From positions 1 through 34,466 of the IMG/VR virus record IMGVR_UViG_3300023109_000064: a stretch of 34,466 bases of DNA; one strand, 5' to 3'. Made by a program: the position numbers and the translations under genes. This stretch comes from a virus. This document shows, piece by piece, positions 1 through 34,466 of this stretch. Numbering within the stretch: position 1 is the stretch's first letter; each line of letters opens with the position of its first letter. The notes under the pieces were generated by a model, which did no database searches, had not been told where the DNA came from, and saw only the letters and a program-made list of their open reading frames with translations.

Positions 1-1336
1 TTTCAAAAGTGATTCTTTGAAGAGTCACTAATGAATCTTGATCTATATTTACAAACGCAGCATCCTCTTCTGTAGTTAAATATACCTTTTCAACACGAAC
101 AGTTGCTTCATTAAAATCTAAAGATCCCTTGATTTGAGAAGACAACAGGTATGCATCTTCTGAGTCAATAAAATTGAAAGCTAAATCAGAATTAACATTT
201 ATAAGTTTTGAATTAACTATGTAAATTTTAGAGCTAGTTGCGTTTGGTATAGTTTCATGCGATCTTATTTCGCAATTATTCATATAAATAGTTGCATCAG
301 GGCAAGCGACTTCAAAAACTTCAGAAAAGTTTTGTGTTTCTTGAAAAATACAATTGTTAAAGACAACCGTAACAGAAGCAGATCCAACAGGTATGTAAAA
401 ACGATTAAAGGAAATGTTTGTAAACGATACTACTCTTAAGTCTTCGTCATTATCTGTTAAATCGACAATCAAATTGTTTATGTGAGAAAACGTATGGTCT
501 TTTTCTGGAGGGTGCAGTCCTACAAAATGCACTCCGGGTTTATCTATATCTATAGGGTTTTGGGGTGGGGTTATTACACCTTGTTTTAAAAGTATATTTT
601 TTGGGTTTGAGGCAGATACTGTTTGTTTTTTTAAGGCCCACAGCGCTTCTAGGTCTGAATCATCATCGTCAGAGTCATTGCCGCATGTATAATCTGTAGC
701 GTTTGAAAATCGCTCTAGTGTACTGTCTATTTGCGCGAGTATAGAGACCTCTAACGCATCTACTTCAGCTTTTGTGTATACATCAGCTTTATCGGCTTTG
801 TTTTGTTCAAGATTAGTTAGTTGTGCAAGTATTGTTGCGCCGAAGTTTGGGTCATTATTTATAGCAGCAACCAAGGCGTGTAGGGTGCTAAGTGTAGCGG
901 GTGCGCTACCAATTAGAGTTCCGATTTCATCGTCAACATACTGCTTAGTAGCCCAAACTTGAGCATCAATGCCCGCCGACAGTACAAGGAAGCGCTCTGT
1001 TTTATTAGCATCTATCCAGTTCTGAGGTTGATAGGTGGTTCTATCACTGTCTGCTAAAGCACTATCACCTATGTAAATATAAACATTGTTTTCAGCAATA
1101 GAGAAGAACGCTTCGCCTTCTCGGTAATCTTCCGGAGATGTATTCGCTATATTGAGTAAGCTAGATTGAGGATCTTTCCAATATAGATCCTCAATCTTTT
1201 GATCAAGCCTAAGGTCTTCATCAACGAGTTGCTGGGCGCTTAATACGCCCGTATTTAAATCTACTTTTAAGCCAGCAACAACCGTAGATGGATGTATGGA
1301 GCCAGGATGCAATCTTGTTTTTCTATCTATAACCAT
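1..1336 (-). CDS. Tail fibre/spike protein with beta-helix-like region (3' end outside window)
   Basis: An open frame runs without a stop from an ATG at 1336 to the left edge, so the C-terminus is missing. GGAG lies about 9 bases before the ATG. The first ~150 residues include typical tail-fibre segments (SAPATLSTLHALVAAINNDP, then a KADKADVYTKAEVDAL-like stretch) where fibre proteins often form trimeric coiled or repeat regions. From about residue 260 the chain alternates short beta-strand-like runs with asparagines (VVFNNCIFQET, IYMNNCEIRS, IYIVNSKLINV), as in right-handed beta-helix spikes. The likely role is a virion receptor-binding or tail-decoration protein. The exact family cannot be named by eye. 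It sits directly after a small structural gene, consistent with the edge of a tail module. Confidence 0.75.
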   Translation of the reverse strand, partial: MVIDRKTRLHPGSIHPSTVVAGLKVDLNTGVLSAQQLVDEDLRLDQKIEDLYWKDPQSSLLNIANTSPEDYREGEAFFSIAENNVYIYIGDSALADSDRTTYQPQNWIDANKTERFLVLSAGIDAQVWATKQYVDDEIGTLIGSAPATLSTLHALVAAINNDPNFGATILAQLTNLEQNKADKADVYTKAEVDALEVSILAQIDSTLERFSNATDYTCGNDSDDDDSDLEALWALKKQTVSASNPKNILLKQGVITPPQNPIDIDKPGVHFVGLHPPEKDHTFSHINNLIVDLTDNDEDLRVVSFTNISFNRFYIPVGSASVTVVFNNCIFQETQNFSEVFEVACPDATIYMNNCEIRSHETIPNATSSKIYIVNSKLINVNSDLAFNFIDSEDAYLLSSQIKGSLDFNEATVRVEKVYLTTEEDAAFVNIDQDSLVTLQRITFE

Positions 1337-1354
1337 TGACTGACTCTCCGAATC

Positions 1355-1738
1355 CTATACTATAGTTTGCTGCTTAACGTATACTGCTATTAAGATCTGA
1401 GTCGATACAGGGGTTAGTTGATTTCCTCGCAATACAACTGTTTTTTTATCTCCCTCTATATAGTAATCGCCATTTTGATCTTCAGCATTGGTAGCTCTAG
1501 GCAGTAGATCCCCATCAAGAAACAAAGCAAAGAATTCTAACGTACCAGCTGCATAACGGCCAGGTAAGTCAAAACTAAGTGTTTGACCATCCAGTTGATG
1601 TGAAAGATCATAGGGTCTGGGTATAAAACTGTATATAGCACTACCATTAATACCATCTAGAGCATTGATCGTCTCGACAGTTATAGGAGAATCAGTAATA
1701 AAAGTCCCATAGTGTCTATTGTCAGTATGTGTAGGCAT
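1355..1738 (-). CDS. Small tail-associated structural protein
   Basis: This 127-residue soluble protein starts at an ATG preceded by TAGGAGC. It has no signal peptide, membrane segment or cysteines. The composition is beta-rich, with a C-terminal half (FFALFLDGDLLPR... GDKKTVVLRG... TQILIAVYV) that resembles the small beta-sandwich proteins encoded beside phage fibres. It lies 18 bases upstream of the fibre gene on the same strand. A structural or fibre-attachment role is inferred mainly from that position; no family was recognised. Confidence 0.6.
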   Translation of the reverse strand: MPTHTDNRHYGTFITDSPITVETINALDGINGSAIYSFIPRPYDLSHQLDGQTLSFDLPGRYAAGTLEFFALFLDGDLLPRATNAEDQNGDYYIEGDKKTVVLRGNQLTPVSTQILIAVYVKQQTIV

Positions 1739-1748
1739 AAAAACGCTC

Positions 1749-3359
1749 CTATTTTATAGTGTTTAGTTTTATATTTTGTTCATAAATCTTGTCAATTTCA
1801 AGCATACCAGAGTTTTGAGTTAAAAATTTATGATTAGAAGTACAAGTTACTTGTCTGCCATCTTCCAAAGTGTAAGTATAAGTATCTTTAATTCCTTTTG
1901 AATGCCACTGAGTGACTGGTTGAGCAACCCAAGGAACATTAGTACCAGAATCATGACTAAGGAGGAAGCCTTGGTATTGATCCTTAACAAGGTTTTGAAT
2001 AGTGTCAGAACGTAAAGCAGATGGAAGTAAAACTTCTGTATCACCGGCAAGACAATAATCTGCAAAACCTAAAATATCAGTCCAAAGTGATTCTGCATAG
2101 TCGGCGGTCAAGCCGCCAACTGCTTGACAACCTTGAATGAATTTAGGCTTATAAACTTCTAAAACGGAAAGTTTTTTCTTACCCATAGCACGACGAATAT
2201 CATCGCTAGTTTTGGGATCAAACCCAGCAAGCTCGGTAAACAAAGCTAATATCTGTTCCTGATATATTAAAGTCCAGTAAGATGCTTTTAAAATTTCTGC
2301 TACTTTATCTGGTAATTCATCAGGCGGGCAATTGTTCAGTTTATTAGTTATATATTGTTTATCAAGTCCTGCTTGTAAAGGGCCAGGTCTATTAATAGCG
2401 CTAATAGCGCTAAGATCTTCTATGCTTCCTGGTTTTATTTGAGAAATCAATCTCTTAGCTGTACCACTAGTTTCCATTTGAAAAACACCAGTAAGTTTTC
2501 CATCTGCTAAATTTTGATATGTAGGTTCATCGCCATCTGGAATAGCGTAGGGTTCTATATCAATGTCATGGTTTTGTTTAACTAAAAGTTTGCATTCTTT
2601 AATTATTGAAAGAGTATCTATACCAAGGAAATCATACTTAATTAAACCAAGCTCTTCGCACTCGTCTTTATCATATTGAGTTATCCTCTCGGCTTTACTG
2701 TTTTTCCAAATAGGAACAGTATCGCTTATATCTGTATCCGATATAATAACTCCAGCAGCGTGTATGCCAAAATTTGCAACCATATCTTCGATACGATCTG
2801 CAAATTCTAAAAAAGCAGCATATCGCTGATCAGAAGAAAGGTCTGGGTTTTCTTTTAGAATTTCTTCCAAAGTGGCTTCTTTGCCATACTTGGGGGGAGG
2901 TATCATTTTTAAAAGTTCCGTTAACTCAGAAGAATCTCCCTCGTGTATACGGTAAAAACTTCTAGCTAAAGACTTAGGCTTAAAAGTGCCATGAGTAATT
3001 ATATTAGCAACTTTGTCTCGACCCCAATAATCTACACACCATTCAATAGCTTTTTCACGATCTAAAGCGTCATGATCAAGATCTATGTCCGGGGGAGCGC
3101 CGCCAATCATGTCTGATCTTGATTTATTAAAATCAAATTGATCTGTTAAACAAGTAACGTAAAGCAGAATACTGTTATGCGGATTTGGAAGTAGTTTTTT
3201 GTTAGAAGATTCTTGACCAATTAAAAGGAAAAGAATTCGAGATATGTCTTCATCAGAGGACATGCGGACTTCGTATTGAAAGTAATCTTCGTCTACTTCA
3301 GCGTAACGATTATTGTCGATATGTTCGTCAATGAGTTTTAAATCTAGCAATCGTGACAA
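1749..3359 (-). CDS. DNA polymerase III alpha, central catalytic fragment ending in a split intein N-half
   Basis: The 536 residues cover the palm and fingers core of a C-family replicative polymerase. The palm motif PDIDLD (residues 90-95) supplies two catalytic aspartates and KYDFLG (D233) the third. Other family landmarks are ANIITHGTFKPKS, FGIHAAGVI, TGVFQMETSG, NRPGPLQAG, YWTLIYQEQ and RRAMGKKK. The N-terminal PHP domain is absent here and encoded at 5039-6409. After LGFADY at residue 435 the polymerase stops and a 101-residue intein N-half begins with Cys436. Everything beyond (rest of fingers, beta-binding, OB domains) is missing from the window. The start is a TTG directly after the upstream stop, with AAAGAAAG some 9 bases away; an ATG at residue 33 (3263) is an alternative. 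Trans-splicing with a fragment encoded elsewhere is inferred. Confidence 0.93.
   Translation of the reverse strand: MSRLLDLKLIDEHIDNNRYAEVDEDYFQYEVRMSSDEDISRILFLLIGQESSNKKLLPNPHNSILLYVTCLTDQFDFNKSRSDMIGGAPPDIDLDHDALDREKAIEWCVDYWGRDKVANIITHGTFKPKSLARSFYRIHEGDSSELTELLKMIPPPKYGKEATLEEILKENPDLSSDQRYAAFLEFADRIEDMVANFGIHAAGVIISDTDISDTVPIWKNSKAERITQYDKDECEELGLIKYDFLGIDTLSIIKECKLLVKQNHDIDIEPYAIPDGDEPTYQNLADGKLTGVFQMETSGTAKRLISQIKPGSIEDLSAISAINRPGPLQAGLDKQYITNKLNNCPPDELPDKVAEILKASYWTLIYQEQILALFTELAGFDPKTSDDIRRAMGKKKLSVLEVYKPKFIQGCQAVGGLTADYAESLWTDILGFADYCLAGDTEVLLPSALRSDTIQNLVKDQYQGFLLSHDSGTNVPWVAQPVTQWHSKGIKDTYTYTLEDGRQVTCTSNHKFLTQNSGMLEIDKIYEQNIKLNTIK
1752..2054 (-). other. Split intein N-terminal half (DnaE-type IntN)
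   Basis: This covers residues 436-536 of the polymerase fragment. It starts with the nucleophilic Cys of block A (CLAGDTEVL) and contains block B TSNHKFLT, with the TxxH Thr and His. The core PVTQWHSKGIKDTYTYTLED and the end MLEIDKIYEQNIKL match in order and spacing the known cyanobacterial DnaE IntN (about 102 residues; AQPVAQWHDRG... TKDHKFMT... MLPIDEIFE). The frame ends in a stop straight after, with no endonuclease and no C-terminal HN motif, so this is a split and not a contiguous intein. The N-extein ending in FADY before Cys1 corresponds to FAEY in cyanobacterial DnaE, so the insertion site is the same. Confidence 0.95.
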
Positions 3360-3716
3360 TTATAAGAACTTTCTTTGAGTTGGATTGGAAGTATTGTGAG
3401 ATCTTAAAAATTGCAATGCATCTTCAAAAGAATCTTGTTCACAAGCCCAAAGATGGAGACCATGGAATTTAGTAACTAAATGACCTGCATCTTTTAACAA
3501 AATAAAAAGGTCAGAAGAAATAGACCAAAAAGACTTAATCTTAACAGCTCTAGAATCATTTAAAAATAACTCTTGATACCAAAGAGATTGGATAAGATCT
3601 TCCTCAACAGCGTAATCTTCTATAATTGATACAATTAAATCTGTAAAATTATCTTTAACATTAGATGAAATATAAAAATAATAAGCTTCTTCGGTAAGTA
3701 AACTTGGAAAAGTCAT
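3360..3716 (-). CDS. Orphan protein, member C of a three-gene paralogue array
   Basis: The 118-residue form starts at the ATG at 3716, which overlaps the upstream stop (TTATGA); a longer frame from 3773 reads into the previous gene and is less likely. It aligns to its two upstream neighbours: SFWSISSDLFILLKDAGHLV and then FHGLHLWACEQ match FWIVSDYFANKLKENHHLV and HWGFWIWGRET of member A. It is the most diverged copy, having lost the WIWGRET signature. The function is unknown. It ends immediately before the TTG of the polymerase catalytic fragment, so the two are probably translated together. Confidence 0.75.
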   Translation of the reverse strand: MTFPSLLTEEAYYFYISSNVKDNFTDLIVSIIEDYAVEEDLIQSLWYQELFLNDSRAVKIKSFWSISSDLFILLKDAGHLVTKFHGLHLWACEQDSFEDALQFLRSHNTSNPTQRKFL

Positions 3717-4102
3717 AAGAAAGGGTCTTTCAATATAATTTTTTGTACAAAATGATCTTGAGATAGCAAGCAAGTAGCATCAGTTTCCCTGCCCCAAATC
3801 CAAAAACCAAAACAATATGAAACTAAAGCACCTTCCAGAAGTAACTGGCGGGCAAAAGATTCAGAGACAATATAAAAGCCTTTTGGCTTTCTTAAGTTTG
3901 AGTCCTCTTTGTAAAGAGAGTAATCGAGATAAGAAAGTTCAGAGACTAAATTAGGGTTAATGGGTTTTAAATAAAAATCAGAAACCCATTCAGCGTCCTG
4001 AGGAAATTTATTGGGGTCAGCATTAATATGAAGTCTATGCATCATATAAGTGATGCATGAGTGAATATGTTTATTTACAAAAGTTTGCGCAGTTAAATTC
4101 AT
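3713..4102 (-). CDS. Orphan protein, member B of a three-gene paralogue array
   Basis: This 129-residue soluble protein shares GFYIVSESFARQLLLEGALV and CFGFWIWGRET with member A at 4105-4512. The N-terminal pattern is also shared: a helix with KH(I/V)H, then a W..DFY/W..DLF segment. The family looks like a small alpha/beta fold with a conserved aromatic WIWGRET core. I do not recognise it from any characterised system. Starts and stops of the three copies touch or overlap, so they form one transcription unit between the two halves of the polymerase gene. Confidence 0.8.
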   Translation of the reverse strand: MNLTAQTFVNKHIHSCITYMMHRLHINADPNKFPQDAEWVSDFYLKPINPNLVSELSYLDYSLYKEDSNLRKPKGFYIVSESFARQLLLEGALVSYCFGFWIWGRETDATCLLSQDHFVQKIILKDPFL

Positions 4103-4104
4103 GA

Positions 4105-4512
4105 TTAAGTGTAAAAATCTTGCCAGATTTTTTGAAATACGTAATCGATTAATATTGATTGACCTGTAGTTTCTCTACCCCATATCCAAAAACCCCAATG
4201 GTTAGTAACCAAATGATGGTTTTCCTTTAGTTTGTTAGCAAAATAATCGCTGACAATCCAGAATTCAAAAGGCTCTCTTAGTTCTGGGTCTGGTTCAGAG
4301 GGGCAATAGTTTGTACCTTCATAATCTTCATTTACTTCCCAAATGTCAAAATCTTCTTCATATTGAGAAAATAAGTCTTCATACCATTGCTGAGAAGTAA
4401 GATCCCAATCTCTTTGACCTTTTTCTAAAAGTTCCTGAATAAGAAGGTTAGCCCTAGCGTGTACATGTTTTTGTAAAAAAGCTTGTGCTTCTTTACTTTG
4501 ATCGTTAAGCAT
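4105..4512 (-). CDS. Orphan protein, member A of a three-gene paralogue array
   Basis: This 135-residue acidic protein is the best-preserved copy of the array. Key stretches are KHVHARANLL near residue 15, QQWYEDLFSQYEEDFDIWEV, then EFWIVSDYFANKLKENHHLV and HWGFWIWGRET. Its ATG overlaps the stop of the upstream gene by 8 bases. There is no signal peptide, membrane segment or recognisable catalytic motif. The function is unknown; similarity to members B and C shows local tandem duplication. Confidence 0.8.
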   Translation of the reverse strand: MLNDQSKEAQAFLQKHVHARANLLIQELLEKGQRDWDLTSQQWYEDLFSQYEEDFDIWEVNEDYEGTNYCPSEPDPELREPFEFWIVSDYFANKLKENHHLVTNHWGFWIWGRETTGQSILIDYVFQKIWQDFYT

Positions 4513-4756
4513 TAGTTACCTTTACTATATCGTCTGCATAGAATCTTGCAAGATTGACATGTCTGCTGATTAAAGCGGATCTAAAAGCGCCGCCTTTTTT
4601 TGTATAGTTGTATAATATTTTTTGACCATAGCCATTGGTATCGCCTATAACTTTCTTACCAGAGTAAAGAAACCTACCATCAGTTGAAAAAGATCCAGAA
4701 GTGGACTTTGCAGAAGAATCTGAGTGCCAGAATCTAGGTATTAAATGTTCCTTCAT
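4505..4756 (-). CDS. Small orphan protein
   Basis: The 83-residue form starts at the ATG at 4756, which overlaps the upstream TGA (AAAATGA). A TTG five codons earlier is possible but has no advantage. It is a basic, soluble protein with a Ser/Gly-rich first half (SDSSAKSTSGSFSTDG) followed by YSGKKVIGDTNGYGQKILYNY. The second half, ending HVNLARFYADDIVKV, is amphipathic. No family was recognised. It belongs to the small-gene cassette between the polymerase fragments. Confidence 0.65.
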   Translation of the reverse strand: MKEHLIPRFWHSDSSAKSTSGSFSTDGRFLYSGKKVIGDTNGYGQKILYNYTKKGGAFRSALISRHVNLARFYADDIVKVTNA

Positions 4757-5028
4757 TTTGCAGTTTTCCAAGTTTCAACGTTTACAAAAGAACTTTGAAC
4801 TAGCTTTATATCTTTTGGAAGGTAAGCAGTTGTTGCTAAAAGCTCGAGCCTAGCTTGCCTAGCAGACTTCCTTGTCATATAAAAAGAAGTGTTTTTATAA
4901 TTAATGATAAGGCCAGTTTTCTTGTTTAGCACTCCATAAATGTTAATCATCACAGTATTACCAGAATCGCGAATCATTGTAGCTAGGTCATCGATTTGGT
5001 TTTCTTGTATGTAACTTTGTAAATTCAT
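4753..5028 (-). CDS. Small orphan protein
   Basis: This 91-residue protein has an ATG preceded by AAGGAAAATTAA, a good ribosome-binding site that begins at the stop of the polymerase N-fragment. The middle reads as beta hairpins (TVMINIYGVLNKKTGLIINYKNTSFYM) and is followed by a basic helix (TRKSARQARLELLA). No catalytic motif or family is evident. It is the first gene of the insert that separates the two polymerase halves. Confidence 0.65.
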   Translation of the reverse strand: MNLQSYIQENQIDDLATMIRDSGNTVMINIYGVLNKKTGLIINYKNTSFYMTRKSARQARLELLATTAYLPKDIKLVQSSFVNVETWKTAK

Positions 5029-5038
5029 TTAATTTTCC

Positions 5039-6409
5039 TTAAAAAGGTATTTTGCTATTATCTGCAATAATAGCCATTTCTTTGTTAAAAATAAGAGGTG
5101 TAGCACCACGCCCCTCATTTAAAAATCTACCAAAAAGAAGACCATATTTAACTGGATCTACTTCTGTGATTTTAAGAGCCCAAGCGATCAAACTGCCAGC
5201 AGCAGATCCACGACCGGGACCATGCATAACCCCTCTCTCTCTAGCACCGTCCATAAACTGTGCTACAATAAGAAGGTAATCTGCAAAACCCATACGTTTA
5301 ATAACTTTAAGTTCGTGATTAAGACGCTCAATATAGTCTTGAGGGGGCATAGCACCAAAACGATTATAAAGACCGTGTTGAGCTTCTATAGTTAAGTGTT
5401 CTATAGAAGTTAAACCTTCAGGCAATTCTTGATATTTTGGATACCTATTCATGCGATCCATGAAATAACTGTCACTATCTATCATAGATGCTAAATGCAC
5501 TGTGTTAGATATGACATCGTAAGGCATGCCTTGAGCGTGAGCTTCACGCCACATCCAATCTCCGTCTGCTACATGAACGTTTATTTCACCAAAAGTAAAA
5601 CGCTTTTCATTGGAAAGCGTAGTTTTAGTCTGCATACACAAAGCAGCTTCGTGATGCTCTTTATCATGCTCTGTAGGGTAATGGCAGTCTGCAGTAAGTA
5701 TCATTGGAAAATCATTATCAATAGCAATTTGCTGAAGAACTTTATTAACGGCTTGCTGTTCTTCGTCTTTATGTAATTGCAGCTCGATTATAAATCTATT
5801 TTTAAATATATCGCGATGATGATGAATTAACTTTTCAGCTTGTTTTCTTTGACCCTGAAGGATAAGTTGACTAGCCCTGCTGCCAAGGCAAGTTGTAGTA
5901 GCAATAATTCCTTCAGAATACTCAGCAATCAAAGCGTCATCAATTCTAGGCTTCCTATACATACCTTCAGTGTAAGCATAAGAACTTAATTTCATTAGAT
6001 TTTTTAAACCAACATTATTTTTAGCCAAAAGAATTAAATGATAATAACTTTTACCTAGTTCATCAGGTTCGCGAACTGTACGGTCTCCAACAGTATAATA
6101 GGCTTCCATGCCAATTATAGGTTGAACACCGGCTTTATTACACTCTTTGTAAAACCTATAGCTGCCAGATATGTTACCGTGATCTGTTTGTGCAACTGCA
6201 GGTTGATTCATCTGTTTAACTTGAGATGGAAGTCTATTAACTTTATTAATACCATCTAGTAGAGAATATTCAGTGTGTACGTGCAAATGCACAAATTCAT
6301 TTTCTACTTCTTGCGCAGGCATAGTCCAAGATTTTGACTTGCTTTTATGCTTACAGTGAGAATGATCATGATGAGTGTCGTTGCAATCAGATTGATGATT
6401 ACTACTCAT
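5039..6409 (-). CDS. DNA polymerase III alpha, N-terminal fragment (PHP domain and start of palm)
   Basis: The 456 residues match the N-terminal third of DnaE. The PHP domain starts with HLHVHTEYSLLDG (His41, 43, 45), then TDHGNISG, PIIGMEAYY and TADCHYP. It continues to the palm entry HGPGRGSAAGSLIAWALKI and LLFGRFLNEGR. A normal alpha subunit would next carry the catalytic PDIDxDF; here the chain ends GATPLIFNKEMAII... and stops, so no catalytic aspartate is present. The remaining palm is at 1749-3359. The first 29 residues are unusually His/Lys-rich (THHDHSHCKHKSKSKS); a start at Met30 (6322) would remove them. The start used overlaps the end of recA by 8 bases. Confidence 0.93.
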   Translation of the reverse strand: MSSNHQSDCNDTHHDHSHCKHKSKSKSWTMPAQEVENEFVHLHVHTEYSLLDGINKVNRLPSQVKQMNQPAVAQTDHGNISGSYRFYKECNKAGVQPIIGMEAYYTVGDRTVREPDELGKSYYHLILLAKNNVGLKNLMKLSSYAYTEGMYRKPRIDDALIAEYSEGIIATTTCLGSRASQLILQGQRKQAEKLIHHHRDIFKNRFIIELQLHKDEEQQAVNKVLQQIAIDNDFPMILTADCHYPTEHDKEHHEAALCMQTKTTLSNEKRFTFGEINVHVADGDWMWREAHAQGMPYDVISNTVHLASMIDSDSYFMDRMNRYPKYQELPEGLTSIEHLTIEAQHGLYNRFGAMPPQDYIERLNHELKVIKRMGFADYLLIVAQFMDGARERGVMHGPGRGSAAGSLIAWALKITEVDPVKYGLLFGRFLNEGRGATPLIFNKEMAIIADNSKIPF

Positions 6410-7421: not shown

Positions 7422-7799
7422 TTATATTTCAATACTTTCAGAATGTTGATAGGTAGTTTCTAAAAGAATGTCAGAAGCTAGCTGTTGCTTTAATAAAATA
7501 GTTTTCTGAGCTCTTGAATTGACAAGAGTATAATTTTTAATAGCTATAGAAGGACTAAGAGCGCCTCCCCAAAAAAACGGATTTGATTTCCTATTAGTCA
7601 ACCATGCTTGATAAGCATAAATGAACTGCTTTTTAGCAACCCAGTCTTCAAGTTTAATCAACCATTGGTCAGGTGTTAAAGGCGTAGAGTAATTGGAATA
7701 AGAGAATTCTTTTTTACGCCACTCATCTCTATCTTTTCCAAAGAAAGAAGCCCTTAAAGTTTTATACCGAAAACGCTTTTCGTCTAATGTGGAATTCAT
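7422..7799 (-). CDS. Orphan basic protein
   Basis: The 125 residues start at an ATG that overlaps the stop of the upstream gene (TGATG). It is basic and aromatic-rich (WRKKEFSYSNYSTP, QWLIKLEDWVAKKQFIYAYQAWLTNRK), followed by a predicted helical tail. It has no signal peptide, membrane segment or known motif. It lies directly before recA, so a role around replication or recombination is possible but only by position. Confidence 0.65.
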   Translation of the reverse strand: MNSTLDEKRFRYKTLRASFFGKDRDEWRKKEFSYSNYSTPLTPDQWLIKLEDWVAKKQFIYAYQAWLTNRKSNPFFWGGALSPSIAIKNYTLVNSRAQKTILLKQQLASDILLETTYQHSESIEI

Positions 7800-8011
7800 C
7801 AATCATCTCTTTCTGGATTTAAAATCAAACTTATGTTTTCTTGTACTTCAAGAGCTTCAGGAAGAAGTACTTTTGGTAAAGTAGAGTCGTGAACTTTTTT
7901 ACTTAAATTAGTAGCACCTAACAAATGAAGTATCTCCATGAGAGGGTGAGCCACGATATTGTGCAAAGTAAATCTAAAATGATTGCGCGCTTTAAATAGA
8001 ATCTTTTTCAT
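7799..8011 (-). CDS. Small conserved phage protein (HN-AHPLM type)
   Basis: The 70 residues carry a pattern I associate with small phage proteins of unknown function: a basic N-terminus, then TLHNIVAHPLMEILHLLG and KKVHDSTLPK. The hydrophobic middle could associate with membrane but is short for a true transmembrane helix. No function is known to me. It is tightly packed in the nucleotide-metabolism block. Confidence 0.65.
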   Translation of the reverse strand: MKKILFKARNHFRFTLHNIVAHPLMEILHLLGATNLSKKVHDSTLPKVLLPEALEVQENISLILNPERDD

Positions 8012-8016
8012 AATAA

Positions 8017-8244
8017 TTAACCAATAACAGTTTCAAGATTTTCGGTAAGGTACTTGTTCCAAGTAGTATTTAAAATTCCTGTCATCAGGAATTCTCTTTC
8101 TGATAAAGCTAAATGGGGAACTATATTTTGAATATACTCTCCAGTAATATTTCGGTTTTCTATTCTTATAAGCTCTTCCTCAGTAATATTGATATCAAGG
8201 GTGTTATAAGTGTTAGTGATTATACATTTTCTAGTAACTTGCAT
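8017..8244 (-). CDS. Small conserved phage protein (PHLSxxxREFL type)
   Basis: The 75 residues match the layout of a small family common in phages: an N-terminal beta hairpin, then GEYIQNIVPHLALSEREFLMTG and a Trp-containing end (TTWNKYL). The conserved part is the PHL...REF..TG..W string. Its function is unknown. It has no cysteines or membrane segment. The stop lies 5 bases before the next gene. Confidence 0.65.
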   Translation of the reverse strand: MQVTRKCIITNTYNTLDINITEEELIRIENRNITGEYIQNIVPHLALSEREFLMTGILNTTWNKYLTENLETVIG

Positions 8245-8257
8245 TTAAAGGTTTCTT

Positions 8258-8701
8258 TCAGGACAATTGTTTGAGTTGTTTAAAAACAATATGAGAGTTA
8301 GTTTTTAAATAATCTGAATAAAGATTCTGACTAACATCAGAATAATCTGAATCAAAATATATAGTTGTTATTCCAGATTGAATTATGTTTTTAAAACAAT
8401 TCCAACAAGGTTTAGTTGTGCAGTAAATTACTGCAGAGTTAAGTGATGAACCATTTCTAGCAGCTTGATTGATAGCATTTGTTTCAGCATGTATAGTAGT
8501 AATGCAATGACCATCATGTATGGTACAACCCACGTCTTCACAATGCGGAGCAGCAGGAAGAGAACCGTTATAGCCGGTGCTTATAACGGTTTTAGTTATT
8601 TGGTTTACAACTACTGCGCCAACTTTACGTCGCTTACAAGTGCTTCTTGTGGAAGCGATGTGAGCCAGGTCCATAAAGTAGTGCGGCCAAGTTTTTCTCA
8701 T
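8258..8701 (-). CDS. Deoxycytidylate (dCMP) deaminase
   Basis: The 147 residues belong to the zinc-dependent cytidine/deoxycytidylate deaminase superfamily. Zinc ligands and catalytic Glu are in HAETNAINQAARNG and the two cysteines in PCWNC. The N-terminal segment WPHYFMDLAHIASTRSTCKRRKVGAVVV and YNGSLPAAPHCEDVGC are typical of ComE/dCMP deaminases. The enzyme would turn dCMP into dUMP, feeding ThyX (24211-25014) for dTMP in an AT-rich genome. An intragenic 10-bp perfect inverted repeat lies at 8563-8591. Confidence 0.93.
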   Translation of the reverse strand: MRKTWPHYFMDLAHIASTRSTCKRRKVGAVVVNQITKTVISTGYNGSLPAAPHCEDVGCTIHDGHCITTIHAETNAINQAARNGSSLNSAVIYCTTKPCWNCFKNIIQSGITTIYFDSDYSDVSQNLYSDYLKTNSHIVFKQLKQLS

Positions 8702-30491: not shown

Positions 30492-30565
30492 TGGACCTTC
30501 TGGGACTCGAACCCAGGACCTGCGGATTAAAAGTCCGATGCTCTAACCAACTGAGCTAAAAGTCC
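30492..30565 (-). tRNA. tRNA-Lys (anticodon UUU)
   Basis: Read on the minus strand the sequence folds as a tRNA: 7-bp acceptor stem (GGACTTT with AAGGTCC), D-arm AGCTCAGTTGGTTAGAGC, anticodon loop CTTTTAA with anticodon TTT, and T-arm with GGTTCGAGTCC. The discriminator is A and CCA is not encoded. Lys AAA codons are common in AT-rich phage genes. Confidence 0.95.
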
Positions 30566-30613
30566 TTAAAATTAAGTTGAACAAAGTATGTAACAAGAAT
30601 TTAGTATGCAAAA

Positions 30614-30687
30614 TGGGCCCACCAGGACTTGAACCTGGGACCTACCGATTATGAGTCGGGGGCTCTAACCAACTGAGCTATAGGCCC
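30614..30687 (-). tRNA. tRNA with CAU anticodon (Ile2 or elongator Met)
   Basis: On the minus strand it folds with acceptor GGGCCTA/TGGGCCC, D-arm AGCTCAGTTGGTTAGAGC, anticodon stem-loop CCGACTCATAATCGG and T-arm GGTTCAAGTCC. Discriminator A, no CCA. CAU may be elongator Met or Ile2 after lysidine modification by host TilS. The G-rich acceptor and anticodon stem resemble Ile2, and AT-rich genomes use AUA, so Ile2 is preferred but not proven. Confidence 0.9.
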
Positions 30688-32672: not shown

Positions 32673-33812
32673 TTAAGTGTTAGACTTGGTGCGATTGCAA
32701 GGTTTACAAAGCATTTGTAAATTGGCTTGTATCGTCTTACCTCCACTAGACCAAGGAACTATATGATCAGCTTCCATTTGTTCTAAAAGGAAATTGGCTT
32801 TGCAAGAAAGGCATACGCCTTTTTGAGTTTCATATGCCAGTTGCTTATCTTTGGCATCAAAAGTACGCAAATTTAAATGCTTTTCATTGCCACTTAAAAG
32901 GTAATAATAAATACCTTTAGTGGACCTTAATTGAACTTCGTCGTCGTTTAAAAGAGCTCTATAAGTAGATTCGATAGTTACAGGATCATACTCTTGAGTA
33001 GAGTGCTGATTAAAGAGGAATCCCCAAGGGATTCCCCTCATATCTCTTCTATAGGTAGGGAAAACAGAGTGAACCCACATGATTACTTTTTGAAAGTAAT
33101 CCCATAATTCAAAAGAATAATTGGAAGTATTTTGAGGTATAATGTCACTTTGATGATTAGACATGTAAGTTTCAATATCGCAAGATTTACTATCTGCTAT
33201 CCACAAAAGAGCAGTTTCTAAGTAGTCTTGTTTAATTGGAACCCCTTTTACATAACGATTTGCAAAGTTATAAGCAGGGCAATTAGTCTTACTAAAGAAA
33301 GATTTTGCGTAAGAAAGCCATTCGCCGGTATAAACTGCGTTTCTTAATTCTTGGTTTGTTAACTTTTCACCAGAAATATTTATAGTTTTAAACCAATCAA
33401 GTTTTTCTTGAGAAGTACCTTGGCAAAAGTAAACCATAAGCTCGTAATTTAAAATTTCATCTTGGACATCTTTAGTTAGATTTGAAAAATACTTAGGATT
33501 TTCAGACAAATCTAAAATAGAAAATTCGCCTGAAACAAACTGACAAATAGATATAGTTCTTTGTTGACCGTCTAAAACTTCAAAAGAAGAAGTTCCGTTT
33601 TGAACCCAGTACATAACATTAATTGGCAGCCTATTCATGACTGAAGTTATTACTGCGTTTCTTTGATCAATGTTGTAAACAAATTCACGTTGATAAGCAG
33701 GTCTAACGTTAAGATTTTCAGAATAAGCAATTATACCTTGCTCAAGGTGGCTATTGTCTTTGTAACCAGAAACAAGTTCTGAGATTGGTATACTTTTAAG
33801 TTCAATCTTCAT
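32673..33812 (-). CDS. DUF262-HNH protein (GmrSD/restriction-like)
   Basis: The 379 residues show an N-terminal DUF262 domain: AYQREFVYNIDQRNAVITSV, EVLDGQQRTISICQF (DGQQR at 81-85), INISGEKLTNQELRNAVYTG. The C-terminus is an HNH nuclease motif: GVCLSCKANFLL, MEADHIVPWSSGGKT, NLQMLCKPCNRTKSN, giving two Cys pairs and the catalytic His. DUF262 domains are ParB/Srx-like NTP-using modules found in GmrS-type and other modified-DNA restriction systems. It overlaps the methyltransferase by 11 bases, so the two may act as a modification and cleavage pair. Confidence 0.9.
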   Translation of the reverse strand: MKIELKSIPISELVSGYKDNSHLEQGIIAYSENLNVRPAYQREFVYNIDQRNAVITSVMNRLPINVMYWVQNGTSSFEVLDGQQRTISICQFVSGEFSILDLSENPKYFSNLTKDVQDEILNYELMVYFCQGTSQEKLDWFKTINISGEKLTNQELRNAVYTGEWLSYAKSFFSKTNCPAYNFANRYVKGVPIKQDYLETALLWIADSKSCDIETYMSNHQSDIIPQNTSNYSFELWDYFQKVIMWVHSVFPTYRRDMRGIPWGFLFNQHSTQEYDPVTIESTYRALLNDDEVQLRSTKGIYYYLLSGNEKHLNLRTFDAKDKQLAYETQKGVCLSCKANFLLEQMEADHIVPWSSGGKTIQANLQMLCKPCNRTKSNT

Positions 33813-34466
33813 TTTCTTTAACTTTATGTTTAATAATTAAGCGACGGTATAAAATTTTACCATCTAATTCGGGGCCCTTACCTCTCCAAGGAACAGTATG
33901 GTCATCAAGACCAAGTATTTGAAACTGGTCAGGACAATATTTAGTTAAAATAGAGATAGGTACTCCCATAGGGCCTGAATAATCTAAAGGTATGTTTTTT
34001 ACTTTTGAAACCTCAATAGCATCACAGTTTTCATATTGTTTGTATTCGTCTGAATACTTTTTATACAAAAGTATTGGAGTGTTACGTTTATAATGCTCAA
34101 TATTTGTAAACCAACAAATATTCCCAAACTTCTTAAAAGAACCGTCTGGTTGCAAAAACCTATTTACATTATTGACACCAAGCCAAAGCAAATCATCCTT
34201 TAACAAGGGGAAGATCTGCTTATATGTTATAGCGTTCATACTGCCAATAAGAAGAAAAGATTTTTGATATCTCAACAACGTAGAAGTATATTCACGAAAA
34301 AGGCTAAAGGGAGGGTTTGTTACCACAATGTCAGCTTCTTGAAGAAGCTGAATCGAAGCAGGAGAAGAATAACTGCCATCGCCAAGTATTTCAGTTATCT
34401 TACATTCGTCTGGACTAGTCATTTCCAACTTAGTAGTAGTCAAAGCAGCGCTTACATAATGTGTAG
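33802..34466 (-). CDS. EcoRI-type adenine DNA methyltransferase (5' end outside window)
   Basis: The frame is open past the window edge (reads THYVSAALTTTK before any start), so the N-terminus with part of the AdoMet site is missing. The catalytic motif IV is DIVVTNPPFSLFREY; FLLIGSMNAITYKQIFPLLKDD, GNICWFTNIEHYKRNTP and NCDAIEVSKVKNIPLDYSGPMGVPISILTKYCPDQF follow, matching the EcoRI methylase family. It would put N6-methyl-adenine in a specific site to block restriction. It is directly upstream of the DUF262-HNH gene and probably co-transcribed. Confidence 0.92.
   Translation of the reverse strand, partial: THYVSAALTTTKLEMTSPDECKITEILGDGSYSSPASIQLLQEADIVVTNPPFSLFREYTSTLLRYQKSFLLIGSMNAITYKQIFPLLKDDLLWLGVNNVNRFLQPDGSFKKFGNICWFTNIEHYKRNTPILLYKKYSDEYKQYENCDAIEVSKVKNIPLDYSGPMGVPISILTKYCPDQFQILGLDDHTVPWRGKGPELDGKILYRRLIIKHKVKENED

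Follow-up and report, generated by a model that had tools for sequence, protein, structure and literature searches.

The window analysed here is a 34,466-base fragment of phage DNA from IMG/VR (IMGVR_UViG_3300023109_000064; G000), a metagenomic and incomplete record. As judged from their domains, two of its open reading frames (ORFs) encode parts of a replicative phage polymerase of the DnaE type (PolIII-alpha), whose gene comes in three pieces. We consider it highly probable that this phage DnaE is made in three pieces, A, B and C, that B and C are joined by a split intein, whose N-terminal half (IntN) ends piece B and whose C-terminal half (IntC) precedes piece C, and that piece A is attached non-covalently.

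The PF07733 profile (NTPase/palm) is divided between the two ORFs, with positions 2-102 matched in ORF 5039-6409 (piece A) and 100-260 in ORF 1749-3359 (piece B); the latter also matched positions 1-164 of PF17657 and was 56-72% identical over its full length to five relatives. The PHP domain, the palm with its PDxDxD motif and the fingers of a DnaE polymerase were found in the window, and the HHH of the C-terminal HHH/OB part was seen in relatives.

IntN Belongs to the DnaE Split Inteins

The C-terminal part of ORF 1749-3359, on the minus strand, reads ...LWTDILGFADY↓CLAGDTEVLL...TCTSNHKFLT...KLNTIK (arrow, intein junction). The intein runs from the codon of its first residue (Cys1), 2054-2052, to the end of its last codon at 1752 and is followed by the stop codon (1751-1749). 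A sequence-only reading of this DNA had described an IntN of 101 residues with Cys1, a TxxH motif, FADY before the Cys and no endonuclease, and these coordinates and residues proved correct to the base. The similarity to known inteins was far above chance, as shown by a Smith-Waterman score of 157 against the Npu IntN (2000 shuffles: mean 25, maximum 51), by the NCBIfam intein_Nterm profile (E = 9.6e-11, above cut-off) and by phmmer against the Npu DnaE split intein (E = 5e-14, residues 1-97). The Pfam Intein_splicing profile stayed below its cut-off (19.7 vs. 35.8 bits). A profile search against the PDB retrieved DnaE inteins at 1e-44 and the next intein family at 5e-10, and the AlphaFold2 model of IntN alone (predicted local distance difference test, pLDDT, 82) had as its top fold match 4qfq, the Npu DnaE split intein, with a template modelling (TM) score of only 0.44, as is expected of half a fold. 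Homology to DnaE split inteins therefore exceeded that to other inteins in both sequence and fold, and the insertion site of this family, FA[D/E]Y↓CFN, was found as FADY↓C in the window and as N↓CFNKAH or N↓CFNKSH in relatives, so that the term "cyanobacterial-type" used in the sequence-only reading was upheld. In agreement with the same reading, a domain search recognised no endonuclease in the window, and no IntC was found within its 34,466 nucleotides.

IntC and Piece C in Related Phages

A search with piece B led to eight relatives, and the phage clade of the window itself is called the P clade below. Six of the eight carried IntC, after which came CFNKAHS or CFNKSHS and then the C-terminus of DnaE; the other two were short. 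A scan with piece C gave 25 loci, 22 in the P clade and three in other phages. IntC was about 36 amino acids (aa) long, ended in SN or HN and was directly followed by the polymerase sequence; the IntC-C ORFs, in those listed, began as MKI..KEYLG..VYDIGV...HNF.L.NGLVASN↓CFNKAHS, each at its own ATG (one at TTG). The ~36-residue IntC with CFNKSH and DnaE C-terminus that had been predicted was thus present in every relative long enough.

Both halves were observed in 13 P-clade records, on separate genes (IntN ~100 aa, IntC ~36 aa), with IntC downstream beyond tail genes and 2,119-13,552 bases between B and C. The window ends 1,748 bases beyond the IntN stop, a distance shorter than every one of these gaps, which explains why its own IntC was not found. 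Since the gene order after piece B (a 127-aa ORF, then a tail protein) matches that of the relatives, piece C is expected immediately beyond the end of the record.

Predicted Trans-Splicing and the Points That Weigh against It

Cys1 and the TxxH motif were invariant in the 12 tabulated P-clade sequences (11 relatives and the window), and the Asp of block F, Asn(-1) and Cys(+1) were invariant in all 11 tabulated relatives. The catalytic residues of DnaE split inteins are all kept, Asn(-1) and Cys(+1) being judged from relatives only. The ratio of nonsynonymous to synonymous differences (pN/pS) was 0.30 for IntC, indicating purifying selection, which was weaker on IntN (0.66). Because the splicing residues are invariant, trans-splicing of IntN and IntC is the best reading of these data. 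The functional trans-splicing proposed from the sequence alone thereby gained a partner, present in relatives, and a complete set of catalytic residues, while splicing itself stays a prediction from comparison.

In the proposed mechanism, IntC would precede the C-terminal polymerase piece, on the far side of the tail genes and outside the window record. The two halves, translated separately, would bind and form one Hint domain; the thioester formed by Cys1 at FADY would be attacked by the +1 Cys and, with cyclisation of the Asn, B and C would be left as one polymerase chain, joined seamlessly as ...FADY-CFNKAHS.... Piece A, with the PHP domain and the first half of the palm, would most likely associate with spliced B-C without a covalent bond. 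The sequence parts, how far they are conserved and how they pair in relatives are observations, whereas splicing, this assembly and polymerase activity are predictions.

Several points weigh against this reading. The IntC of the window is not in hand, and the non-covalent assembly of piece A rests on the absence of alternatives. IntN evolves fast (pN/pS 0.66, with synonymous sites near saturation). The cyanobacterial pattern of a negative IntN and a positive IntC is weak or inverted in the P clade (net charge -9 to +3 for IntN and -6 to +1 for IntC, vs. cyanobacterial values of -4 to -13 and 0 to +4, respectively); an inversion is apparent in two pairs, and charge complementarity within pairs is loose, as judged by eye. 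The AlphaFold model of whole piece B was poor (pLDDT 54) and was set aside as unfit for use. The fast evolution of IntN and the lost charge pattern would suit a decayed relic, the pieces working unspliced or the phage using the host polymerase, but a relic would somewhere lose residues or one half, whereas the catalytic residues are invariant in all relatives tabulated, IntC is under constraint and the halves stay paired in all records long enough; we therefore regard a relic as very unlikely. An assembly or frameshift artefact could mimic a split gene in an incomplete metagenomic record, but the same breaks recur in at least 13 relatives, down to 56% identity and from separate samples, which leaves this explanation a negligible probability.

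A Second Break in the Polymerase

The polymerase is also interrupted in the palm domain, between ORF 5039-6409 and ORF 1749-3359 and just before PDxDxD, a break that the sequence-only reading had not mentioned. The tail of piece A (ATPLIF...) and the N-extension of piece B are both kept across the P clade, with pN/pS values of 0.28 for the A tail, 0.27 for the A core and 0.51 for the B N-extension. No group I or group II intron was detected between A and B in the window at the Rfam level, no intein motif or intein ends were found at the break, and in no relative did the B N-extension have an IntC-like end (HN or SN followed by C, S or T). As neither an intron nor intein ends were found there, piece A probably joins spliced B-C non-covalently. 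An origin of the break by duplication, with the B N-extension as a copy of the C-terminal region of A, was dropped when profile comparison found no similarity between them.

Alternatively, the 2 kb separating A from B might hold an intron, or a trans-splicing element that went unrecognised, through which these two pieces, too, become joined. Group I introns do occur in piece B and recA of relatives, and in L228, a distant phage, a LAGLIDADG ORF is found at the corresponding A/B break. We nevertheless find such a junction unlikely, given that the A-B interval of the window is without an intron, that the A tail is conserved as protein (pN/pS 0.28) and so is translated, that piece B begins at its own start codon, at a conserved position, and that the end of its N-extension is unlike that of IntC.

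In L009 (10885-11207; also in L006 and L007), a group I intron (RF00028, 66.8 bits) splits piece B at SAIN↓RPGP, and recA upstream holds a weaker one (30.7 bits, under the gathering score). A second gap in L062 (RRAMG...KKKHDV) contained no Rfam intron.

DnaE-Type Split Inteins in Other Phages

In Q_24336 (L227), IntN is joined to LAGLIDADG_3, and IntC starts at an ATG that still lies within this ORF, 26-29 bases before its end; two records identical over 4.5 kb were counted as one observation here, and a frameshift error is possible. Q_35137 (L228) carries IntN, two tail ORFs and IntC ~3.5 kb on, besides two cis inteins and the LAGLIDADG ORF at the A/B break, and Q_37424 (L232) has IntN, one tail-like ORF and IntC 1.3 kb on. 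A predicted split intein of the DnaE type is present in at least three phage lineages. Among 50,697 named phage records, no close IntN in DnaE and no IntC half were found, the alignments among the matches listed beginning at residue 36 or later. A match in the huge phage LR745208 was rejected as a DnaE intein, being a cis mini-intein in DnaX.

The dnaE of L227 also contains a probable group I intron (7612-8426; 27.6 bits, E = 0.005, under the gathering score) with an HNH ORF. The L228 dnaE, on the reverse strand, is an intein hotspot: besides the split intein, it contains a LAGLIDADG intein in cis and, at CFNK↓SHS, an HNH intein. Two other viral contigs (L250 and L252) have inteins beside a CSHATAYS-type DnaE sequence, at a site near the second L228 intein.

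Relationship to the Cyanobacterial Inteins

IntN was matched by 73 of 244 cyanobacterial genomes. The intein tree was built from the IntN and IntC pairs of 31 cyanobacteria (two by IntN only) and of the phages, over ~140 columns, and the polymerase (extein) tree from 349 columns by a quick method. Without an outgroup, a supported branch (96/85) separates the phages from the 31 sampled cyanobacteria. With four cis inteins as outgroup the cyanobacteria nest within the phages, and with six other inteins the phages nest within the cyanobacteria; the root, and with it the apparent direction of transfer, shifts with the outgroup. In the extein tree, the P-clade polymerases form one clade (100) away from cyanobacterial DnaE, and a single clade of both was rejected by the approximately unbiased (AU) test (p-AU 0.022). 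The element lies on a phage record and in a separate tree group, and not on a cyanobacterial chromosome among cyanobacterial members. Some horizontal movement of the intein between phages and cyanobacteria is likely, because site and element are shared and the host genes are not close. The sequence-only reading took the intein as a sign of gene flow between this phage and the chromosome of a cyanobacterium, which the trees do not establish; the intein phylogeny that it called for yielded two separate groups, and the polymerase is not cyanobacterial.

A recent transfer, in which the phage took the split intein or the whole dnaE from the chromosome of a cyanobacterial host, would agree with the identical insertion site, with the nearest solved structures, which are cyanobacterial DnaE inteins, and with the position of the phages under one outgroup set. 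Placing the P-clade inteins with cyanobacterial subclades is 9.6-15 log-likelihood units worse, yet AU tests do not reject it (p 0.14-0.21) because the alignment is so short. The rejected polymerase clade and the branch between the two groups of inteins nevertheless make a recent transfer rather unlikely, as do the identity of the window IntN (31-36% to cyanobacterial IntNs, 55% to the nearest phage) and the membership of piece C, too, in the phage clade. More tentatively, phages may be where the split intein arose, or where it circulated for long, before it passed to cyanobacteria. L227 would then stand midway between a cis intein with an endonuclease and the split form whose halves lie far apart; we hold this to be possible but doubtful.

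Features of the Window

The positions of the polymerase pieces and the genes around them are given in Table 1. Tandem paralogous ORFs with FWIWGRET span 3360-4512, between pieces A and B. Elsewhere in the window, tRNA-Lys and tRNA-Met genes lie at 30492-30687, and a GmrSD_N-HNH protein adjoins an EcoRI-like adenine methylase at 32673-34464, perhaps as a restriction-modification pair.

Table 1. Polymerase pieces and adjoining genes in the window.
Feature	Position	Strand	Description
Piece B of phage PolIII-alpha (DnaE)	1749..3359	(-)	536 aa, TTG start; N-extension (aa 1-87), palm second half with PPDIDLD, fingers, then IntN
IntN	1752..2054	(-)	101 aa; Cys1, TSNH block B, without endonuclease, FADY before
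Piece B N-extension	3099..3359	(-)	~87 aa ahead of PPDID; kept in relatives; helical in model; not IntC
Piece A of phage PolIII-alpha	5039..6409	(-)	PHP domain and palm first half (HGPGRGSAAGS), lineage-specific 21-aa tail ATPLIFNKEMAIIADNSKIPF; PF02811
Five small ORFs between A and B	3360..5028	(-)	Two or three are tandem paralogs with common FWIWGRET; no known function
Tail-gene block	2..1738	(-)	127-aa ORF, then tail-fibre-like protein; separates B from C in relatives; record ends here

Comparison with Known Systems

Within the literature searched, with subscription papers outside its scope, a split intein of this type in polymerase III is described only from cyanobacteria, and no paper that reports one from phage DnaE was found. 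A 2022 review likewise places natural split inteins only in the DnaE of some cyanobacteria (PMC8861304). Our results suggest that phages carry this type too and could have helped to spread it. As it is predicted in at least three phage lineages, the origin of a widely used protein-engineering tool becomes testable. The results also add varied new split inteins that differ in interface charge, and point to a replicative polymerase built from three polypeptides and to an interleaving of replication with tail genes.

Phage split inteins and fractured genes were reportedly described by Dassa in 2009 (cited in PMC6892783). As in these fractured genes, and in the MIJ3 PolB, an essential replication gene is divided here by a split intein whose halves are separated by other genes. 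The earlier cases concern other proteins or polymerase families, whereas tail genes intervene in the clade of the window; the free-standing endonuclease gene of the Dassa type was not recognised between B and C by ORF inspection of L225, L226 and L229, where no domain search was made. Other phage split inteins are known from other genes (PMC6892783). Desulfonema ishimotonii has a contiguous DnaE intein of 415 aa, reported as related to cyanobacterial DnaE inteins (PMC6390638); it is likened to ours by this published description and not by insertion site, and it is unsplit.

The closest likeness is to the cyanobacterial split DnaE inteins (Ssp, Npu; PMC8861304, PMC7765530), which share the FA[D/E]Y↓CFN site, Cys1, TxxH, the VYDIG of block F, Asn(-1) and Cys(+1), an IntN of ~100 aa without endonuclease and an IntC of ~36 aa on a separate gene, and which gave the best match in fold and sequence. 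In contrast to them, the intein of the window is phage-borne, in a non-cyanobacterial polymerase, and its IntN is only 31-36% identical to theirs; the halves in its clade lie 2-14 kb apart across tail genes, the charge pattern is lost, and the polymerase has an extra upstream break.
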